From contig NZ_CP063458.1 in the NCBI RefSeq assembly GCF_015169395.1, positions 6,965,954 to 7,029,953 of the forward strand: a stretch of 64,000 nt of DNA, in the 5' to 3' direction. Within the stretch, counting starts at the first letter, position 1; each line of letters starts with the position of its first letter. This document shows positions 34,300 through 57,940 of this stretch, piece after piece. Under the pieces are notes generated by a model, which was given only the letters and a program-made list of their open reading frames with translations, had not been told where the DNA came from and did no database searches. The stretch is from Humisphaera borealis. GTDB taxonomy: Bacteria > Planctomycetota > Phycisphaerae > Tepidisphaerales > Tepidisphaeraceae. A program made the translations under genes and the position numbers.

Positions 34300-34415
34300 C
34301 GGGGGGCGTACGAGGATAGAGGATGGACGATCGAGGATCGAACATAGCAGAATCAGGTGTTCGTCAATCCTCAATCCTCAAGCGTCGATCCTCACAGTCC
34401 TCGATCTTCAATCTT
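34300..34415. repeat. GAGGAT-rich inverted repeat (family H)
   Basis: Copies of GAGGAT and GATCGAGGATCG around 34311-34345 are mirrored by AATCCTCAATCCTC and GTCGATCCTC around 34370-34395. The block lies between queD and the tetR gene and overlaps the end of the latter. It is a low-complexity interspersed element. Confidence 0.5.
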
Positions 34416-35037
34416 CCGACCTGCCCCGCGCCTGTACCTGCACCAGCAGCGCGTCCATCTCCGGCGGAAGCAGGGCGTCGAGCAGCCATCGGCCGGTCGT
34501 GGTCAGCCGGCTGGGGTCGTCGAAGGCGTGGGCCGACAGCATCGCGCCGTGCAACGCCGAGTAGACGCACCGGGCGGCGGCGGCGGACGAGCCTTCGAAC
34601 TCCAGCACCTTGGCTTTGCGGCCTTCCCCGAGCACCCGGGCTAGCCACGCCTCATTATCGTTGAAGAACGCCCGAACGTCTTCCTGGAGCGGGCTTGGCA
34701 AAACGGTGAGTTCGGTCGCCAGCATGCCGCACAGGCACATGCAGTTGTTCGGCCGAAGGGTCGCTTGGAACAGTTGGATGAATCGCTCCAGCGCGTGCCG
34801 TGGTGACAGGGCCTGTTCGTCGATCTTCGCCAGCGACAGGTGCAGGCGTTCGCGGTAGCGTGACATCAGGCTGCGGACGAGGTCGGTCTTGGTGGGAAAG
34901 TGGTAGTGGATCGCAGCCGATTTCACGCCGATTGCCTCGGCGAGGTCTCCGAAACTGAACCCGTTGTAGCCGCGCATCTGTACCAGGCGCTGGGCGACAT
35001 CAAGGATTTCGGTCTGCCTGGGGCTACGCAGTTCCAT
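34408..35037 (-). CDS. TetR/AcrR-family transcriptional regulator
   Basis: The 209-residue protein has a TetR N-terminal helix-turn-helix (about residues 9-55): TEILDVAQRLVQMRGYNGFS, then DLAEAIGVKSAAIHYHFPTKTDLV, which is the recognition part. The C-terminal ligand-binding domain is all-helical, with a cluster CMCLCGML near residue 99. Two palindromic sites lie just upstream of the start (35048-35063 and 35123-35138), so it probably represses itself. The nearest other genes under those sites are the nitrilase-cluster genes on the opposite strand. The ligand is unknown. The start at 35037 was chosen because MELRSPRQTEIL fits family N-termini. Confidence 0.88.
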   Translation of the reverse strand: MELRSPRQTEILDVAQRLVQMRGYNGFSFGDLAEAIGVKSAAIHYHFPTKTDLVRSLMSRYRERLHLSLAKIDEQALSPRHALERFIQLFQATLRPNNCMCLCGMLATELTVLPSPLQEDVRAFFNDNEAWLARVLGEGRKAKVLEFEGSSAAAARCVYSALHGAMLSAHAFDDPSRLTTTGRWLLDALLPPEMDALLVQVQARGRSED

Positions 35038-35047
35038 AGGGCGTGAA

Positions 35048-35063
35048 CTTATCGATTGGTAAG
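35048..35063. promoter_or_regulatory. TetR operator candidate 1
   Basis: CTTATCGATTGGTAAG is an imperfect 16-base palindrome eleven bases upstream of the tetR start. Its right half TTGGTAAG matches the left half of the second site read on the other strand. Confidence 0.65.
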
Positions 35064-35122
35064 CGCAACGGCAAAGAGAAATCCAGTTTCCATGCGGTTT
35101 CACGCGATTTTCGTGGCGATTG

Positions 35123-35138
35123 CTTACCAACTGGTAAG
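35123..35138. promoter_or_regulatory. TetR operator candidate 2
   Basis: CTTACCAACTGGTAAG is a near-perfect 16-base palindrome (half-site CTTACCA). Its centre lies 75 bases, about seven helical turns, from the first site. Confidence 0.7.
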
Positions 35139-35315
35139 TAAGGGGCGCGAATCGCGCTGCCGCATTAAGCGGCGAAAAACAGGCGTTCGACGCGCCGCGC
35201 GGCACGCCCGCCGCACCCGGTTCGAACGGTCGAAAATGTTCTTCGCCGCCGTTGCCCAATACTCCACTGGGAATTGTGGCCAAATCACCAACGTGCTGAA
35301 CTCCCAATTTCAGTG

Positions 35316-35332
35316 CTGGCATCAGGATTGCC
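35316..35332 (+). promoter_or_regulatory. Candidate sigma-54 promoter of the nitrilase cluster
   Basis: TGGCA (35317-35321) and TTGC (35328-35331) are separated by six bases, which is the -24/-12 spacing of sigma-54 promoters. GG and GC, the two invariant pairs, are present. The first cluster gene begins 108 bases downstream. Such promoters commonly serve nitrogen-starvation genes. This is a sequence match only. Confidence 0.55.
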
Positions 35333-35439
35333 TTCGCTCCTTTGTTCTCAAGCGCTACTCCGCGGGCTTCCGAACGGCGATTCTGCCTTCAAGGTGAAGG
35401 CTTTTCGTCTCTGCCATACCGCGTACTCGGAGAGACTCC

Positions 35440-35922
35440 ATGCCTGTCGTCGAAAAACCAGCCAACAAAAAGGGCGATTTCCTGGTCGATTACGAAGAGA
35501 AGGTGTTCGAAGACGTCAAGGCCGAGAAGGGTGAGAAGGCGCTCGTTACCTTCCACACCGTCGCGTTCGAAGGCTCGATCGGGCTGGTGAACCTTCTGCA
35601 GGCCACCCGCCTGAAGCGTAAGGGTTTCGAGACTTCGGTCCTACTGTACGGCCCCGGCGTGACGCTCGGCGTGCAGCGCGGGTTCCCCACGCTCGGCGAC
35701 GAAGCCTTCCCCGGCCACCAGAACATGAACAAGCAGATCGTGAAGTTCATGGAAGAAGGCGGCAAGGTCTACGCCTGCCGGTTCGCGCTGCAGGCCCTCT
35801 ACGGCCACGGCGAAGGCGCGCTGATCCCCGGCATCCGCCCGATCAGCCCGCTGGACGTGCTCGACCTCATCCTCCTGCACCGCCGCGACAACGCGTTCAT
35901 CCTCGATACGTGGACGGTGTAG
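35440..35922 (+). CDS. Nit1C cluster protein, MSMEG_0572/Sll0783 family
   Basis: The 160-residue soluble protein matches the nitrogen-starvation family typified by Synechocystis Sll0783 and Mycobacterium MSMEG_0572. The body is DsrE-like: [31 protein letters not shown] and [30 protein letters not shown], and it has a cysteine in [17 protein letters not shown]. Its biochemical role is unknown; in Synechocystis its homologue is tied to polyhydroxybutyrate build-up in nitrogen starvation. It is the first of eight co-directional genes. GGAGA lies just ahead of the start. Confidence 0.85.
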
Positions 35923-35950
35923 TCGCTCTTCGTAACCCGGAAGAAGAGAT

Positions 35951-36090
35951 CGACCACAGATGCACACAGATGAACACAGATGAGAAAGAAGTCGGACATG
36001 AAAGGACGCTTGCTCGCACGCCGTTCGGCAATGGCGACGACTCGTTTCGCCTCTTCTGATCTGTGCATATCTGTGTGCATCTGTGGTTCC
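35951..36090. repeat. CACAGATG palindrome (family B)
   Basis: The left arm CGACCACAGATGCACACAGATG (35951 on) and right arm CATCTGTGGTTCC (to 36090) are reverse complements over about 40 bases, with CACAGATG repeated three times per arm. It fills the gap between the first two cluster genes. Confidence 0.75.
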
Positions 36091-36141
36091 CCCTCGGTTC
36101 TGCGGTTCCCCTTCCGGTCTTGAGATGTGAAGGACTTACCC

Positions 36142-37161
36142 ATGCCGTCGAAGACGATTCGAGCCGCCGCCGTTCAGATCGCTCCGGTCCTGCACAGCCG
36201 TGAAGGGACGATGGAGAAGGTGCTGTCGGCGATCAGCGACGCCGCGGACGAGGGGGCGGAGATCGTCGTTTTTCCCGAGACGTTTGTTCCCTACTACCCG
36301 TACTTTTCGTTCGTGCTGCCGCCGGTGCTGATGGGCGGCGAGCACATGAAGCTTTACGAAGAGGCAGTGACGATCCCCAGCCCCGCGGTGGACGCCGTCG
36401 CGTCGGCGGCGCGGGAGCATGAGATCGTCGTCGTACTCGGCGTCAACGAGCGAGACCACGGCTCGCTCTACAACGCGCAGCTCGTATTCGATGCCGACGG
36501 AACGATCGCCCTTCGACGGCGGAAGATCACGCCGACCTATCACGAGCGGATGGTTTGGGGCCAGGGTGATGGCTCAGGGCTGAAGGTCGTGCAGACGGCG
36601 GTCGGCCGGGTCGGGGCATTGGCCTGCTGGGAGCACTACAACCCGCTGGCCCGCTACGCCCTCATGGCGCAGCACGAAGAGATTCATGTCAGCCAGTTTC
36701 CCGGATCGATGGTCGGCCAGATCTTCGCCGACCAGATGGAAGTGACGATCCGGCACCATGCCCTGGAGTCGGGATGCTTCGTCATCAACGCGACCGGCTG
36801 GCTGACGGACGAACAGATTGTGTCGATCACGCCGGACGCCAAACTGCAGAAGGCCCTGCGGGGCGGGTGCTGCACGGCGATTATCTCACCGGAAGGATCG
36901 CACCTGTGCCCCAAGCTGACCGAAGGCGAAGGCATCGCGATCGCCGATCTGGACTTCAGCCTGATCACCAAACGCAAACGCATGATGGACAGCGTCGGCC
37001 ATTACGCCCGGCCCGAGTTGCTGAGCCTGGTCGCCAACGTCAAGCCGGCAATGCCGATGGTCATCGACGGCCCGTCGCCCATCCCTGCGATGACGGAAGC
37101 CGTAGAGCCGACGGAGATCCCCAACCCGTGGCAGGAACTCGCGCAGGCGGCGAGCGCGTGA
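36142..37161 (+). CDS. Nit1C cluster nitrilase (Sll0784 family)
   Basis: The 339-residue enzyme is a carbon-nitrogen hydrolase of the nitrilase-1 branch. The catalytic triad is complete: Glu46 ([13 protein letters not shown]), Lys128 ([12 protein letters not shown]) and Cys162 ([15 protein letters not shown]). The WEHYNPL wording and PYYPYFSF are typical of true nitrilases rather than amidases. Nitrilases turn nitriles into acids plus ammonium. The natural substrate of the Nit1C enzyme is not settled; the cluster is reported to be tied to cyanide assimilation. The start [12 protein letters not shown] at 36142 follows GAAGGA; an upstream GTG is less likely. Confidence 0.92.
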
Positions 37162-37348: not shown

Positions 37349-38662
37349 ATGACACAAACGCATTACCCGGTGATCGTGATTGGCGGCGGCCAGGCGGGGC
37401 TTTCGATCAGCCATCAACTGACGCAGCGCGGCATCGACCACCTCGTCTTTGAGAAGCACCGGATCGGCCACGCCTGGCGTGAATACCGGTGGGATTCGTT
37501 CTGCCTCGTGACGCCGAACTGGCAATGCAAGCTGCCGGACTTTCCCTACACGGGCAAAGACCCCGAAGGCTTCATGGGGAAGCACGCGATTGTCGAGTAC
37601 ATCGAGCAATTCGCCGCGTCATTCGGGGCACCGGTACGGGAAGGCGTCAGCGTGACGCGCCTCCGCCGGGTGACGAGTGATGCCGCGACCATGTTCGAAC
37701 TCGAGACCTCCGCCGGCGTATTCACCGCCGACCAGGTCGTTGTCGCGGTAGGGGGATATCACCTGCCCGTCGTTCCGCGGATGGCCGAGCGGCTGCCGAA
37801 AGACCTCGCGCAGATTCACTCGCGCGAATACAAGAACCCGCAGTCGATGCCCGACGGCGACGTGCTGGTCATCGGCAGCGGCCAGTCCGGCTGCCAGATC
37901 GCCGAGGACCTCCATATAGCCGGCCGTAAGGTCCACCTTTGCGTCGGCGGTGCCCCGCGTGTCGCAAGGCGATATCGCGGTAAGGACGTCGTCGAGTGGC
38001 TCGACCTGATGGGGTTCTACGACCTGCCCGTCCACAAGCACCCGCTGAAGGAGCAGGTCCGCGGCCGCGCCAACCATTACGTCACCGGCCGCGACGGCGG
38101 CCGCGACATCGACCTGCGGCTACGCGCCAGCGAAGGCATGAATCTCTATGGCCGGCTTCTCGCGATCGAAGACGGCGTGATGCACTTTGGCCAAGACCTC
38201 AAACAGAACCTCGACAAGGCGGATGAGACGTCAGAGAGCATCAAGACCAGCATCGACAAGTTCATCGGCGAACGTGGCATATCCGCCCCGACCGAACCGC
38301 GGTACACGCCACTATGGCACCCGCCCGAGCCTGCGGTGACGACGCTGGACCTGAAGGCGTCGAACATCCGCTCGGTCATCTGGTCGATCGGCTATCGGGC
38401 GGACTTCAGTTGGATTGAGATTCCCGTCTTCGATGGCCGCGGCTACCCCGGACACCAGCGCGGCGTGACGACGTGCGAAGGCTTGTACTTCCTCGGATTG
38501 CCCTGGCTGTACACGTGGGGTTCCGGGCGGTTTTCCGGTGTGGCACGAGATGCGGCGTACGTCGCCGACCGTATCGAACTGTGCCGAAGTGAGGACGCCG
38601 ACGATGAAGTTGCCGTTCCGTACGACGGTGCACACATGATCGAGGCGTTGATCGGGTCGTGA
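37349..38662 (+). CDS. Nit1C cluster flavin-dependent oxidoreductase (MSMEG_0569 family)
   Basis: The 437-residue protein is a two-dinucleotide-domain flavoenzyme. FAD binds at [17 protein letters not shown] (residues 8-24) and NAD(P)H at [17 protein letters not shown] near 171. Early sequence [20 protein letters not shown] matches the MSMEG_0569-type family, which resembles FMO/Baeyer-Villiger-like monooxygenases. Reaction unknown; an oxidation of a nitrogen-containing intermediate is conceivable. It is the third gene of the cluster and has no overlapping neighbour. Confidence 0.87.
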
Positions 38663-38881: not shown

Positions 38882-40102
38882 ATGCAACTCAACGTCGTCG
38901 GTCCGACATCGTCATCCTCGATCTCTTCGCAGGATCTCATCACCGAACTGCAATGGCTTGGATTGCGCCTCGATGACCCCTCCGCCGGTGCTGCCGGACG
39001 CAAAGGTGGCGCGGGGCCGTCGGACCATAAGGCGGTGACCGTACAGGGTCGCACCGTCATGGTGCCGATCCACACGCACGCAGCACACCAGTCTCCGTAC
39101 GTCGCCCGTAAGCCCGGCGAGGACGGTCTTTCAACGCTCGAGCGCGATGGCGTCGTTGTCGGTTCGATCGGCTTTCCCAGGCAACCTCGCTTCTACGGCC
39201 TGCAAACCTTCGACGGCATTCCCTATTGGAAAATCGCCGTGCTGCACTCCAGCGATGTGCTGGCGACGACCGTCCTGCAGAACTGCATCCGGTATCAGAA
39301 CCAGGCGACCACCTGTCAGTTCTGCGCGATCGGGCAGTCGCTCAAAGCCGGCAAGACGGTCGCCCGCAAGACGCCGCAGCAACTGGCCGAGGTGGCCCGG
39401 GCGGCGGTTCTGCTGGACGGGGTCAAGCACATGGTGATGACGACCGGCACGCCGAACCTGACCGATCGCGGCGCGCGGGTATTGTGCGAGAGCGCGTTCG
39501 AGATCAAGGGCGCGGTCGACCTGCCGATCCAGGGCCAGTGCGAACCACCCGACGACAACGCCTGGTTCCGCCGGATGCGCGAAGCGGGCATCGATACCCT
39601 CGGCATGCACCTGGAGGCGGTCGAACCGGCGGTGCGGGCGCGCATTATGCCGGGCAAGGCAAGCGTCTCGCTCGATCAGTATTTCGACGCGTTCGAGGTC
39701 GCCGTCGATGTCTTCGGTCGCGGGCAAGTGAGCACGTACATCCTTGCCGGCCTCGGCGACACGCCTGAAGCCATCATCCGCATGTGCGAGCGACTGATCG
39801 CCGTCGGCGTGTATCCGTTCGTCGTGCCGTTCGTGCCGATTTCGGGGACGGCGCTCGAAGCCCACCCCGCGCCGCGGGCTGACTTCATGCGGCCGCTGCT
39901 TCGCGAACTGGGCGGCATGCTGCACCGAGCAGGCATGACCTCCGCCGACATCAAGGCCGGCTGCGGCAAGTGCGGGGCGTGTTCGTCGCTGTCGGCATAC
40001 GAGCAGGAACATGCCGGTTGTGCGACGGCCCCATCGACCCAATCCGTAACGCCGGTCGCGGCCGCGATGACGAAGGCGGCGGGGAGCGTGTCGACATGCT
40101 GA
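38882..40102 (+). CDS. Nit1C cluster radical SAM protein (MSMEG_0568 family, Sll0785)
   Basis: The 406-residue protein carries a cysteine motif CIRYQNQATTCQFC (Cys135, Cys145, Cys148), a long-spaced version of the iron-sulfur motif of radical SAM enzymes (C-x9-C-x2-C rather than C-x3-C-x2-C). MTTGTPNLTDRGARVL and QCEPPDDNAW follow the TIM-barrel pattern, and a C-terminal cysteine-rich tail (AGCGKCGACSS) may hold another site. The reaction is unknown. Its stop overlaps the next gene start (ATGCTGATG), so the pair is translationally coupled. Confidence 0.85.
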   Translation: MQLNVVGPTSSSSISSQDLITELQWLGLRLDDPSAGAAGRKGGAGPSDHKAVTVQGRTVMVPIHTHAAHQSPYVARKPGEDGLSTLERDGVVVGSIGFPRQPRFYGLQTFDGIPYWKIAVLHSSDVLATTVLQNCIRYQNQATTCQFCAIGQSLKAGKTVARKTPQQLAEVARAAVLLDGVKHMVMTTGTPNLTDRGARVLCESAFEIKGAVDLPIQGQCEPPDDNAWFRRMREAGIDTLGMHLEAVEPAVRARIMPGKASVSLDQYFDAFEVAVDVFGRGQVSTYILAGLGDTPEAIIRMCERLIAVGVYPFVVPFVPISGTALEAHPAPRADFMRPLLRELGGMLHRAGMTSADIKAGCGKCGACSSLSAYEQEHAGCATAPSTQSVTPVAAAMTKAAGSVSTC

Positions 40103-40776
40103 TGACCAGTTGCCTGCTCGATCCTCCCGACGCCGTCGCCGCACAGGCGATGTCGTTCCACACCGGCACGGCGGCTTCGGCCTGGGCCGTGCCGTCGGGC
40201 GTTTACCGGGTGAAGCTGGCGACCGACGATTGGGAACTGCGTCGGTACTGGCAGTTGCGGCAGGACGTCTTTTGCCGCGAGCAGCGACTTTTCACCAACA
40301 CCGATCTCGACGAGAACGACAGCCACGCACAGCCGATCGTCGCCGTCTCGTACAACGCGGTGATGGACGACGATGTCGTCGGCGCGGTGCGAATCTATGA
40401 ACAATCGCCGGGCGTCTGGTGGGGATCGCGACTCGCCGTCGCGGCCGAATGGCGCGGCGTGCGCAGCCTGGCGGCGGGGCTCATCCGTTGCGCCGTTTGC
40501 ACCGCCCATGGCTACGGCTGCCGCACGTTCCTGGCGACGGTGCAGTTGCAGAACGTACCGCTGTTCCGGCGACTGCACTGGAGCACGCTGAGCGAGGTCG
40601 AAGTCTGCGGCAAGCCGCACCATCTGATGCAGGCGGACTTGGCACACTATCCCGCGGAGCGACGTCGCGAAGGTCATTCCGGCGTCGTCGTAACGAACCT
40701 CAGCGCCACAACTCGCGCGATCTCTCCCGCCTCAATCGGACACTCGACGATCTGTCCCTTCCTGGAGGTGTCGTGA
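40096..40776 (+). CDS. Nit1C cluster N-acetyltransferase (MSMEG_0567/Sll0786 family)
   Basis: The roughly 226-residue protein has the GNAT-like wording of the cluster family: RVKLATDDWELRRYWQLRQDVFCREQRLF, then VVGAVRIYEQSPGVWWGSRLAV and RSLAAGLIRCAVCTAHGYGC, with a C-terminal acyl-binding part. An acetyl or other acyl group is probably transferred to a small molecule made by the cluster. It overlaps the radical SAM stop by seven bases (or by one base if the ATG at 40102 is used), and the following gene starts inside its stop codon (GTGA). Confidence 0.83.
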   Translation: MLMTSCLLDPPDAVAAQAMSFHTGTAASAWAVPSGVYRVKLATDDWELRRYWQLRQDVFCREQRLFTNTDLDENDSHAQPIVAVSYNAVMDDDVVGAVRIYEQSPGVWWGSRLAVAAEWRGVRSLAAGLIRCAVCTAHGYGCRTFLATVQLQNVPLFRRLHWSTLSEVEVCGKPHHLMQADLAHYPAERRREGHSGVVVTNLSATTRAISPASIGHSTICPFLEVS

Positions 40777-41726
40777 ACCTCCCGCAACTCAACGCCTATT
40801 TGCAAGGTCTGCGCGGCGTTGGACACAAGCTCGACATTCAGAAGGTCGCGCCCGCGATTGGTACATCTGCCGTTCCTGTCGGCGACGATTGCGCCGCCAT
40901 CCCTGACGGCGACGGGTACTTGTTGTTTGCGATCGAAGGCCTGCTCGATGAGTTCGTCGCCGCCGAACCCTGGTTCGCCGGGTATTGCTCGGTGATGGTC
41001 AACGTCAGCGACATCTGCGCGATGGGCGGCCGGCCGACGGCGGTCGTCGACGCGATCTGGGCGGCATCGGCCGAAAAGGCCGGGCCGATCTGGGATGGCA
41101 TGCACACCGCCGCTACGAAGTACGGTGTGCCCATCGTCGGCGGGCACACGAATCATCGGTCGGCAGGGGACCACTTAGCCGTCGCGATCGTAGGTCGGGC
41201 CAGGAAACTGCTCACCAGCTTCGACGCCCGCCCCGGCGATGCGTTGGTCGTAGCGATCGACCTGCGCGGCGAATGGTACGGGCCGTACCCGTACTGGAAC
41301 GCCAGCACGACAGTCCCCGGCGATCGCCTGCGCGGCGACCTGGAACTATTGCCCATGATCGCCGAGGCCGGGCTGGCCGTTGCCGCGAAGGACATCAGCA
41401 TGGGCGGCGTTGTCGGCACGACGACGATGCTTGCCGAGTGTTCTGGCGTCGGGGTGACGATTGACGTGTCGCGTATACCGATGGCTGAGGGTGCCCTGCG
41501 TGAAAAGTGGCTGTCGGCGTTTCCGAGCTTTGGGTTTGTCCTCGCCGTGCCGCAGGCCAGTGTTGCCGCCGTGGTCGATCGATTCTCGGGTCGCGGCATC
41601 GCCGCGGCGGCCGTGGGAACGTTTGACGATAGCCGAACGGTTCGGCTCGCCGACGGCGCGGGGCCCAGCGAGTTGTTCTGGGACCTCCGGCGTAAGCCGT
41701 TTATTGGATTCGGGCCTGCCGCTTAG
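40773..41726 (+). CDS. Nit1C cluster AIR-synthase-like protein (Sll0787 family)
   Basis: The 317-residue protein starts with GTG (VNLPQLNAYL), preceded by GGAGG, and overlaps the upstream stop by four bases. It belongs to the PurM/ThiL/SelD-like ATP-binding fold: VPVGDDCAAIPDGDGYLLFA, VNVSDICAMGGRPTAVVDAIW and VPIVGGHTNHRS carry the two aspartates and the glycine-rich parts of the fold. These proteins phosphorylate or amidate small molecules with ATP. The exact reaction is unknown. Confidence 0.86.
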   Translation: MNLPQLNAYLQGLRGVGHKLDIQKVAPAIGTSAVPVGDDCAAIPDGDGYLLFAIEGLLDEFVAAEPWFAGYCSVMVNVSDICAMGGRPTAVVDAIWAASAEKAGPIWDGMHTAATKYGVPIVGGHTNHRSAGDHLAVAIVGRARKLLTSFDARPGDALVVAIDLRGEWYGPYPYWNASTTVPGDRLRGDLELLPMIAEAGLAVAAKDISMGGVVGTTTMLAECSGVGVTIDVSRIPMAEGALREKWLSAFPSFGFVLAVPQASVAAVVDRFSGRGIAAAAVGTFDDSRTVRLADGAGPSELFWDLRRKPFIGFGPAA

Positions 41727-41744: not shown

Positions 41745-41824
41745 ATGGGCAACGGTACCCCGTTGCCCGTGTCGAACGTCGGACGGCGATCGCCACGGGC
41801 AAGCGAGTACGCTTGCCCATGCCA
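41745..41824. repeat. Palindrome pair GGGCAA...TTGCCC (family D)
   Basis: CATGGGCAACGGTACCCCGTTGCCC (from 41745) and CACGGGCAAGCGAGTACGCTTGCCCATG (to 41822) are each palindromic and are also related to each other. They lie between the AIR-synthase-like gene and the glycosyltransferase gene, whose start is at 41876. Confidence 0.65.
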
Positions 41825-41875
41825 CCCGGAAATGAAGCCGTCTTCGATTCGCAGCTTCAGCAAGTGATTTGTTCC

Positions 41876-43102
41876 ATGAGTCGTCCACTCCGTATCGGCC
41901 TCTTCACCCACTCCACCAATCCTCGTGGCGGCGTGGTGCATTGCCTTGAGCTGGGCGAAGCGCTTGCACAACTCGGTCATGATGTCACTGTTCACGCCCC
42001 GGCCGAAGCCGGCCGCCGATTCTTCCGGCCGCCTGTCCTCGCGCGGCACGTGCTGGTGCCGGCGCGGGCGGTGAAGGCCGCCTTGCCGGTCGTTGTCCGG
42101 CAGCGCATCCAGGAGTACGTCGACTACGTCGCCAACGGGAACGCCAGTTTCGACATCTTCCACGCCCACGACGGCATCAGTGGTGGCGCACTGGCGGACC
42201 TCACGGAAGCGGGTCTTATCGAAGGTTTCGTGCGAACCGTTCATCATCTGGACCAGTTCGAAGATCCCTACCTCGACGCCACTCAATCGAGATCGGTTCA
42301 GGCGGCCAGGCAATGTCTCTGTGTCAGCTCCCATTGGCGGGGGGCGCTCTTTTCACGCTACGGAGTTGATGCGACGACCGTTCCCAACGGCGTGAACCTG
42401 AGCCGGTTCGACCCGACGCCGACCGACTCGGACGGGCCGTTGCGCGATAAGCTGATGGAAGGGGGCCGTGCCGGGCCGTTCTTTCTTGCCGTCGGCGGAA
42501 TCGAACGGCGGAAGAACACGGTCAACATCCTGCGGGCGTTTCTGGAAGTTCGTCAGTCACTCTCCCGCGCGGTGCTGGTGATCGCGGGCGGGGCGAGCCT
42601 GCTTGACCACTCCGACTATCGGCGCGAGTTCGACGCCGTCGTCGCCGCTGCCGGACCCGACGCGGCAAACTCGGTGGTCATCACGGGCGCCATGTCGGAC
42701 GACCAGATGGCGTCGGCGTATCGGATCGCCGACGCGCTGGTGTTCCCTTCGACGGTCGAAGGGTTTGGGCTGGCGGTCCTTGAAGCGATGGCCAGCGGCA
42801 CGCCGGTCATCACGTCGCGCATGCCGCCGTTCACCGAATACCTCGACGACAGCAAGGCGATCCTGGTCGACCCGCACGATCCCGGGCAGATCGCCGCGGC
42901 GATGCTGCGGGTGTTCGATCCGTCGTTGCGCCACGATCTGCGGTCCGCGGGATTGCAGGTCAGCGTGCATTATTCGTGGCAGGCGTCGGCCGCGGCACAC
43001 ATGAGGGCCTACGGCGGCGTGGCGGTCACACCGTCGCCGACTGACCTTAAAGGAGAACCCAACCATGCCGGAAATGCGGTTTCGAGTTCGCTGGCCGGAT
43101 GA
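41876..43102 (+). CDS. Nit1C cluster glycosyltransferase (MSMEG_0565 family)
   Basis: The 408-residue GT4-type enzyme opens with RIGLFTHSTNPRGGVVHCLELGEAL, the Rossmann donor/acceptor start, and has the C-terminal donor-binding EGFGLAVLEAMASGTPVI near residue 296, where the two glutamates of the E-x7-E motif are visible. It most likely glycosylates a small molecule produced by the cluster. The start MSRPLRIG is supported by family-like wording and an upstream palindrome that would separate it from an earlier in-frame ATG. Its end overlaps the next gene by 38 bases. Confidence 0.86.
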   Translation: MSRPLRIGLFTHSTNPRGGVVHCLELGEALAQLGHDVTVHAPAEAGRRFFRPPVLARHVLVPARAVKAALPVVVRQRIQEYVDYVANGNASFDIFHAHDGISGGALADLTEAGLIEGFVRTVHHLDQFEDPYLDATQSRSVQAARQCLCVSSHWRGALFSRYGVDATTVPNGVNLSRFDPTPTDSDGPLRDKLMEGGRAGPFFLAVGGIERRKNTVNILRAFLEVRQSLSRAVLVIAGGASLLDHSDYRREFDAVVAAAGPDAANSVVITGAMSDDQMASAYRIADALVFPSTVEGFGLAVLEAMASGTPVITSRMPPFTEYLDDSKAILVDPHDPGQIAAAMLRVFDPSLRHDLRSAGLQVSVHYSWQASAAAHMRAYGGVAVTPSPTDLKGEPNHAGNAVSSSLAG

Positions 43103-43352
43103 ATCGGTCAGTTCATGCTATTCCCCGTCGCTGGTGATCAAGGACTTCTTCGAGGTCGGCCAGTCGTACACGGTCGCCGATTTCGTGGGCCGCAGCCGCG
43201 AGGCGCTGACGATTGCCTCGAACCGCGTCAAACAGAAGTACGGGTTTGCCTGTTCGTCGGCGGCCGATCAGCTGCAAAGCATCGAGAGCACCGCCGCGCG
43301 GTTCAAGAATGCTTCGGAGCAGAAGGTGCTGGTGCTGGGGTTTGACGAATGA
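43065..43352 (+). CDS. Nit1C cluster small protein (MSMEG_0570 family)
   Basis: The 95-residue product starts MPEMRFRVRWPDESVSSCYSP and continues LVIKDFFEVGQSYTVADFVGRSREAL, which matches the short nitrogen-starvation family found at the end or start of Nit1C clusters. The strong AAAGGAG lies eight bases before the start. It overlaps the glycosyltransferase gene by 38 bases. Its role is unknown; it could be a cofactor or assembly protein. Confidence 0.85.
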   Translation: MPEMRFRVRWPDESVSSCYSPSLVIKDFFEVGQSYTVADFVGRSREALTIASNRVKQKYGFACSSAADQLQSIESTAARFKNASEQKVLVLGFDE

Positions 43353-55753: not shown

Positions 55754-56431
55754 CTGCGACCCCGCTGAGGGAAGTCGACGACGGTAACGAGAGAAGCCGG
55801 CGGCGTTTACGACAAACTGATGTCTGCGAAAGCGGGTGTCATAAGTTGTTCGTTCTTTGACAAGTGAAGAGTCGGATAGCCGCGAGGATGTGAGTCCGAA
55901 GCTGCCGGTGTACGGTGGTGTTCGGACGCCAAGATCCAAGTCGTCGGTCTGAGTTGATACGTCGGCCGCTGGTGTAAATCAGTGGTTGATGGTTTGACGA
56001 GGGTCGGCGCAAGCTTGAGTAAAATCAAGCTGCTTGAATCTCAAGCATTCTTTGCGGTGCGCTTAAGAAGTGATCCTTTGATTCAGTCTGATTGCCCGCA
56101 AGGGTGGTCGGGATGGATCAAGTTCAATTTCAAGAGAGCCGGTCCCCCGGTGCTTAGCCGTGTCGGGGGCCGAAAGCCAGAAGAGAGTGTTTGAGCCTTG
56201 CAAATCCGAGTTGAAGTTGCTGCCGCGAGAGTGGTGGTGATGGAAGCTCGGCGGGCCGATCGTCCTAGCCGACGGTTGGTTCGTAAAGACGCCTTCGAGT
56301 TGTCTTAACTCGGAGGTGTTGGACAAACTCGTTTCGAGGATAAACGCTTCTACTGAAACTGTTAGTCGCCGTCTATGAGGGCCGAGAGGTTCTTACGCGG
56401 TGCATGAGGATGGAGAAGTGCCAAGAAATTC

Positions 56432-57940
<1,509 letters not shown>

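Follow-up and report, generated by a model that had tools for sequence, protein, structure and literature searches.

A putative sigma-54 promoter ahead of the nit1C cluster of the planctomycete Humisphaera borealis

Which promoter starts nit1C, the nitrogen-scavenging nitrilase gene cluster, in a planctomycete, and to what signal would it answer? The product and role of nit1C are unsettled, and a link to nitrogen would suggest a growth condition in which to find the product. When the cluster was described in 2005, no conserved upstream regulatory sites were reported (PMC1199592), and no paper in the literature collection that we searched names nit1C alongside NtrC. Here, we analysed a stretch of 64,000 nucleotides of the Humisphaera borealis genome (the window), in which eight nit1C gene families, all over their NCBIfam cut-offs, make up the conserved gene set downstream of a -24/-12-like motif (Table 1). 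Taken as a whole, the reading that we propose with good confidence is that 35317-35332 would be the -24/-12 promoter of nit1C, fired by an activator, that the cluster would derive from Pseudomonadota and that the neighbouring TetR would repress itself.

Table 1. Features of the nit1C locus, in window coordinates.
Feature	Position	Strand	Remarks
TetR-family regulator, divergent neighbour	34408..35037	-	PF00440, 4e-12; start 35037
Putative TetR operator 1, CTTATCGATTGGTAAG	35048..35063		11 bp from tetR start
Putative TetR operator 2, CTTACCAACTGGTAAG	35123..35138		75 bp from operator 1
Candidate upstream element, CGTTCGACGC	35184..35193		lead only
Putative sigma-54 (-24/-12) promoter, TGGCATCAGGATTGCC	35317..35332	+	counterpart in congener; 75/80 clusters of rpoN-bearing bacteria
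NitB, MSMEG_0572/Sll0783 family nitrogen starvation response protein (first gene)	35440..35922	+	TIGR04044, 1.8e-86
NitC, Nit6803 family nitrilase	36127..37161	+	TIGR04048, 1e-174
NitH, MSMEG_0569 family flavin-dependent oxidoreductase	37349..38662	+	TIGR04046
NitD, MSMEG_0568 family radical SAM protein	38882..40102	+	TIGR04043
NitE open frame, MSMEG_0567/Sll0786 family N-acetyltransferase	39970..40776	+	TIGR04045; domain from residue 79
NitF open frame, sll0787 family AIR synthase-like protein	40419..41726	+	TIGR04049; domain from residue 123
MSMEG_0565 family glycosyltransferase	41813..43102	+	TIGR04047
NitG, MSMEG_0570 family protein	43065..43352	+	TIGR04042

The candidate site and its conservation

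Within TGGCATCAGGATTGCC, TGGCA occupies 35317-35321 and TTGC 35328-35331, with the GG (35318) and the GC (35330) exactly 12 bases apart inside a TGGCAY-N5-TTGC pattern (35317-35331). The initial annotation had placed this motif correctly within a base, and both the exact -24/-12 spacing and the 108 bases that it gave from TTGC to the ATG of the first gene (35440) were reproduced. The site matches 9 of the 12 positions of the consensus, which spans 16 bases; the mismatches fall at positions 6 (T instead of C), 7 (C instead of G) and 16 (C instead of A/T). Transcription would be expected to start at about 35343. The leader contains a terminator-like hairpin, GCCTTCAAGGTGAAGGC, at 35385-35401 followed by TTTT, which was not seen in the congener. 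An Rfam search revealed no riboswitch in the leader upstream of nit1C, the sole match in the window being a 16S rRNA gene (56431-57934) near which no 23S or 5S gene was found.

By count alone, the case for TGGCATCAGGATTGCC is weak. TGGCAYN5TTGC occurs once in the window against 0.28 expected, and 25 of 100 shuffles also contain one. Our genome-wide survey (7.19 Mb), which consisted of pattern searches, gave 21 matches versus 16 for the reversed pattern, which is no clear enrichment. Ten of the 20 other genome matches fall outside good open frames, compared to 3 of the 16 reversed-pattern matches (Fisher p 0.054), a borderline intergenic excess that hints that some of them may be real. Using a matrix built from 77 related promoters, we obtained a score of 6.3 bits for TGGCATCAGGATTGCC (rank 29 in the window), which is low mainly because of the C at position 7. 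What raises the site above chance is its conservation in a congener and in wider relatives.

Among 26 genomes of the order, the first gene of the cluster was found in this genome and one congener only, and a phylum-wide draw of 392 genomes yielded just one further genome. The congener carries TGGCACAACGGTTGCG, an exact TGGCAYN5TTGC, 98 bases before the ATG of the same gene; it matches 10 of 12 consensus positions and, at 17.9 bits, is by far the top matrix match on its contig. If the pattern occurred in the congener gap at its genome-wide rate, the chance of such a match would be ~6e-4. From the second palindrome to the ATG the two species are mostly unalignable (alignment score ~2 standard deviations above shuffles), and in the first gene they differ at half of the four-fold sites (41 of 82). 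The absence of the site from the congener, which a MAFFT alignment had seemed to show, was rejected, as the counterpart was displaced by ~20 columns. The congener encodes rpoN too.

We then considered the top 80 relatives of the first gene together with five annotated plasmid loci. Of the 80 loci that come from rpoN-bearing lineages, 75 have TGGCAYN6TGC within 180 bases upstream, a figure that does not count independent events because the loci are related and were picked by similarity to the window's protein. Their intergenic sequences nevertheless vary widely, and shuffled upstream regions gave a mean of 0.34 loci with the motif (maximum 2) and the reverse strand none. Cyanobacteria and Rhodococcus are lineages without rpoN, as control genomes agree, and none of their four loci carries the motif. 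Among the rpoN-bearing loci, the motif is missing from L064 and L078, where near matches occur, and from the plasmid loci L143-L145, which were a later choice; the nit1C clusters without the motif, L013 and L143-L145 among them, were counted against the promoter reading.

Could the match nevertheless be a chance resemblance, the cluster being driven by a housekeeping (sigma-70-type) promoter under TetR? Roughly a quarter of the 64-kb shuffles hold a match, the matrix score is weak, and a TetR with dedicated operators adjoins the cluster, all of which would suit this explanation. We nevertheless judge it unlikely, given the counterpart in the congener and the motif in most relatives. Moreover, the putative operators, ~205-295 bases ahead of the expected start, are too distant from a polymerase there to block it. 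The initial annotation had named a better sigma-70 promoter as an outcome that would speak against its proposal; in 34900-35500 no sigma-70-like site was found, though the consensus used for the scan may not fit planctomycete promoters. Its proposal that a sigma-54 promoter precedes the cluster is supported by the conservation of the motif and by the presence of rpoN and activator genes, and nit1C very probably starts from this promoter.

The divergent TetR gene and its palindromes

The TetR gene that diverges from the cluster has an ortholog in the congener (79% identical). The initial annotation had correctly located two palindromes, at 35048 and 35123, and left open whether they serve TetR or an activator. 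In the congener, CTTATCGATTGGTAAG corresponds to CTTACTAGGTAGTAAG and CTTACCAACTGGTAAG to CTTACTTGTTAGTAAG; in both, the differences between the species are symmetric, as expected of operators. The distances from the tetR start to palindrome 1 (11) and from palindrome 1 to palindrome 2 (75) are identical in both species, whereas that from palindrome 2 to the -24 element shifts from 194 in the window to 217 in the congener. Moreover, the two palindromes are the sole occurrences of CTTAYCN4GGTAAG in the genome. TetR homologs in other genera adjoin AhpD-like genes and lack the palindromes.

Because their distances to tetR are fixed and they are private to the locus, the palindromes are best read as putative operators through which the neighbouring TetR would act on its own promoter. 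Of the two roles proposed for them, it is the TetR one that is favoured, while the shifting spacing to the promoter argues against the activator one. It might still be supposed that they serve as enhancer for an activator of the sigma-54 promoter, with TetR a bystander: at ~205-295 bases ahead of the expected start, they lie at a permissible enhancer distance, and NtrC-type dyads of proteobacterial loci lie 138-216 bases before the -24 element. We consider this very improbable, as it accounts neither for the fixed tetR distances beside the moving distance to -24, nor for the symmetric, operator-like changes in both sites, nor for the position of operator 1 at the tetR start. With the palindromes read as operators, TetR would repress its own gene through two private sites; an effect on the nit1C cluster is possible, in that TetR may also damp it or report its substrate. 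The binding of TetR, as well as its ligand and target, we infer.

Sigma-54 machinery and the activating signal

The genome encodes one copy of rpoN (genome position 6265844) and seven strong PF00158 proteins, of which six have an intact activator loop (GSFTGA/GAFTGA) and one has GAFTDA. One of these activators is RtcR (815 bits), and a Ro/TROVE-type gene divergent from it is preceded by TGGCACGCCTAATGCT ~40 bases before its likely start. Given that this RtcR-linked Ro operon carries TGGCACGCCTAATGCT, the organism appears to use the canonical -24/-12 consensus. In the reading proposed here, sigma-54 RNA polymerase would bind 35317-35332 in a closed state, and only an AAA+ activator bound upstream would open the DNA for a start near 35343.

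The initial annotation had linked the promoter to a nitrogen-responsive activator, for which support was sought in this genome and not found. No protein exceeds the cut-off of the NtrC equivalog (best TIGR01818 score 444.2 versus 558.6), and the protein that comes closest to a named nitrogen regulator, an activator of GAF type, reaches 525.3 against a NifA cut-off of 528.85. The genome's glnB has no strict -24/-12 site, just the imperfect TGGCATGTGGTTTGTG. The NtrC-type dyad of the relatives is likewise absent: GCAC-N7-GTGC was observed in 18 proteobacterial loci, 148-216 bases ahead of the -24 element (gap controls: one locus with N6 and none with N8), and many proteobacterial loci have direct TTGATCGCA repeats upstream of -24, adjoining a divergent MocR-type gene, while neither dyad nor MocR repeats were found in the window or the congener. 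The idea that these proteobacterial loci include an activator gene was rejected, their divergent gene being the MocR-type regulator; the exceptions are L078, which has one activator gene upstream, and Loktanella, which has one downstream. The pairing of a MocR regulator with a sigma-54 promoter in the L015-L093 upstream regions merits study in its own right.

A search for an activator site shared by the window, the congener and the biuret cluster described below found none. As a candidate activator site, CGTTCGACGC is a lead, no more: it lies 133 bp upstream of -24 in the window and 134 bp in the congener, and the best 20-base identity is 15 (P ~0.008).

Other sites of this type were observed in the genome. 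Exact -24/-12-like sequences precede dnaK (TGGCACAGAGGTTGCA, 246 bp; L109:1500-1763, genome 1748119) and clpB (TGGCACCCGTTTTGCA, 131 bp; L102:1500-1648, genome 794204), which makes a sigma-54 link to these chaperones possible in a planctomycete. Two biuret amidohydrolase-like genes lie near a sigma-54 activator gene (L099:2331-6063, genome about 6808330-6812063), and one of them has a strong TGGCACGACGCGTGCA 235 bp upstream. This makes it the second locus for nitrogen scavenging that carries a sigma-54-like site.

The activator of nit1C probably answers to nitrogen supply, as suggested by analogy with other phyla, where nitrogen shortage induces the cluster. For example, it is a GlnR target in M. 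smegmatis, with >500-fold induction without nitrogen (PMC3662644, PMC6039565), and Sll0783 is up in nitrogen starvation in Synechocystis (PMC3901256). A different signal, such as nitriles, cyanide or redox stress, acting through a specific activator, would compete with the nitrogen part of this explanation and not with the promoter. In Pseudomonas, the sigma-54-dependent NitA adjoins the cluster as a dedicated activator (PMC11049912), and a cyanide-containing residue or medium induces the cluster relative to ammonium (PMC6368324). The missing NtrC equivalog and the sites ahead of dnaK and clpB point in the same direction. However, the control of nit1C by nitrogen in other lineages, the dyads of the proteobacterial loci and the strong site ahead of the biuret hydrolase-like gene argue against such a signal, which we regard as possible but rather doubtful.

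Origin of the cluster and comparison with known systems

In the tree of the first two proteins, the window and the congener group together among Pseudomonadota, and the branches that enclose them are starred; these also take in cyanobacterial rows, and the exact sister is not separated. This placement and the rarity of the cluster in planctomycetes argue for horizontal transfer, and nit1C was probably acquired from Pseudomonadota. After the transfer, the sigma-54 promoter would have been kept or re-made and the NtrC-type and MocR sites lost. One version, which we offer tentatively and place just short of even, is that the operon crossed together with its sigma-54 promoter, that a host activator now fires it, and that the MocR and NtrC sites of the donor were exchanged for a private TetR switch.

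The first nit1C gene was counted on 515 records of a plasmid collection, 374 of them Klebsiella. The Klebsiella plasmid loci, some of which may lie on virulence plasmids, entered the analysis as counts. Between the first two genes of the cluster (35950-36105), short ACAGATG repeats face each other (CCACAGATGCACACAGATGAACACAGATG ... CATATCTGTGTGCATCTGTGG) in a REP-like or MITE-like insert that does not align in the congener.

A sigma-54 promoter in most related clusters examined, together with many NtrC-type dyads, would tie nit1C to nitrogen supply in rpoN-bearing bacteria, in parallel with GlnR in mycobacteria. For a planctomycete, the locus also offers one sigma-54 target that can be tested.

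The same cluster as in the window is known from P. oleovorans (pseudoalcaligenes) CECT 5344 (PMC11049912, PMC6368324), where the gene of the sigma-54-dependent (Fis-family) regulator NitA is divergent to nitBCDEFGH. In contrast, the window has no adjacent activator gene, a TetR gene stands in its place, the flavin gene lies between the nitrilase and radical SAM genes, and a glycosyltransferase is included. The nit1C clusters of Burkholderiales, Rhizobiales, Azospirillum and Methyloversatilis resemble the window in having a -24/-12 element upstream of the MSMEG_0572 gene, but they have a divergent MocR-type gene and TTGATCGCA repeats beside -24, frequently along with an NtrC-type dyad, and none of these was seen in the window. 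Finally, the gpr/MSMEG_0565-0572 operon of M. smegmatis comprises the same gene families and is likewise induced by nitrogen starvation (PMC3662644, PMC6039565), yet it relies on GlnR instead of sigma-54, and the sampled actinobacterial locus (Rhodococcus) is without the -24/-12 motif.
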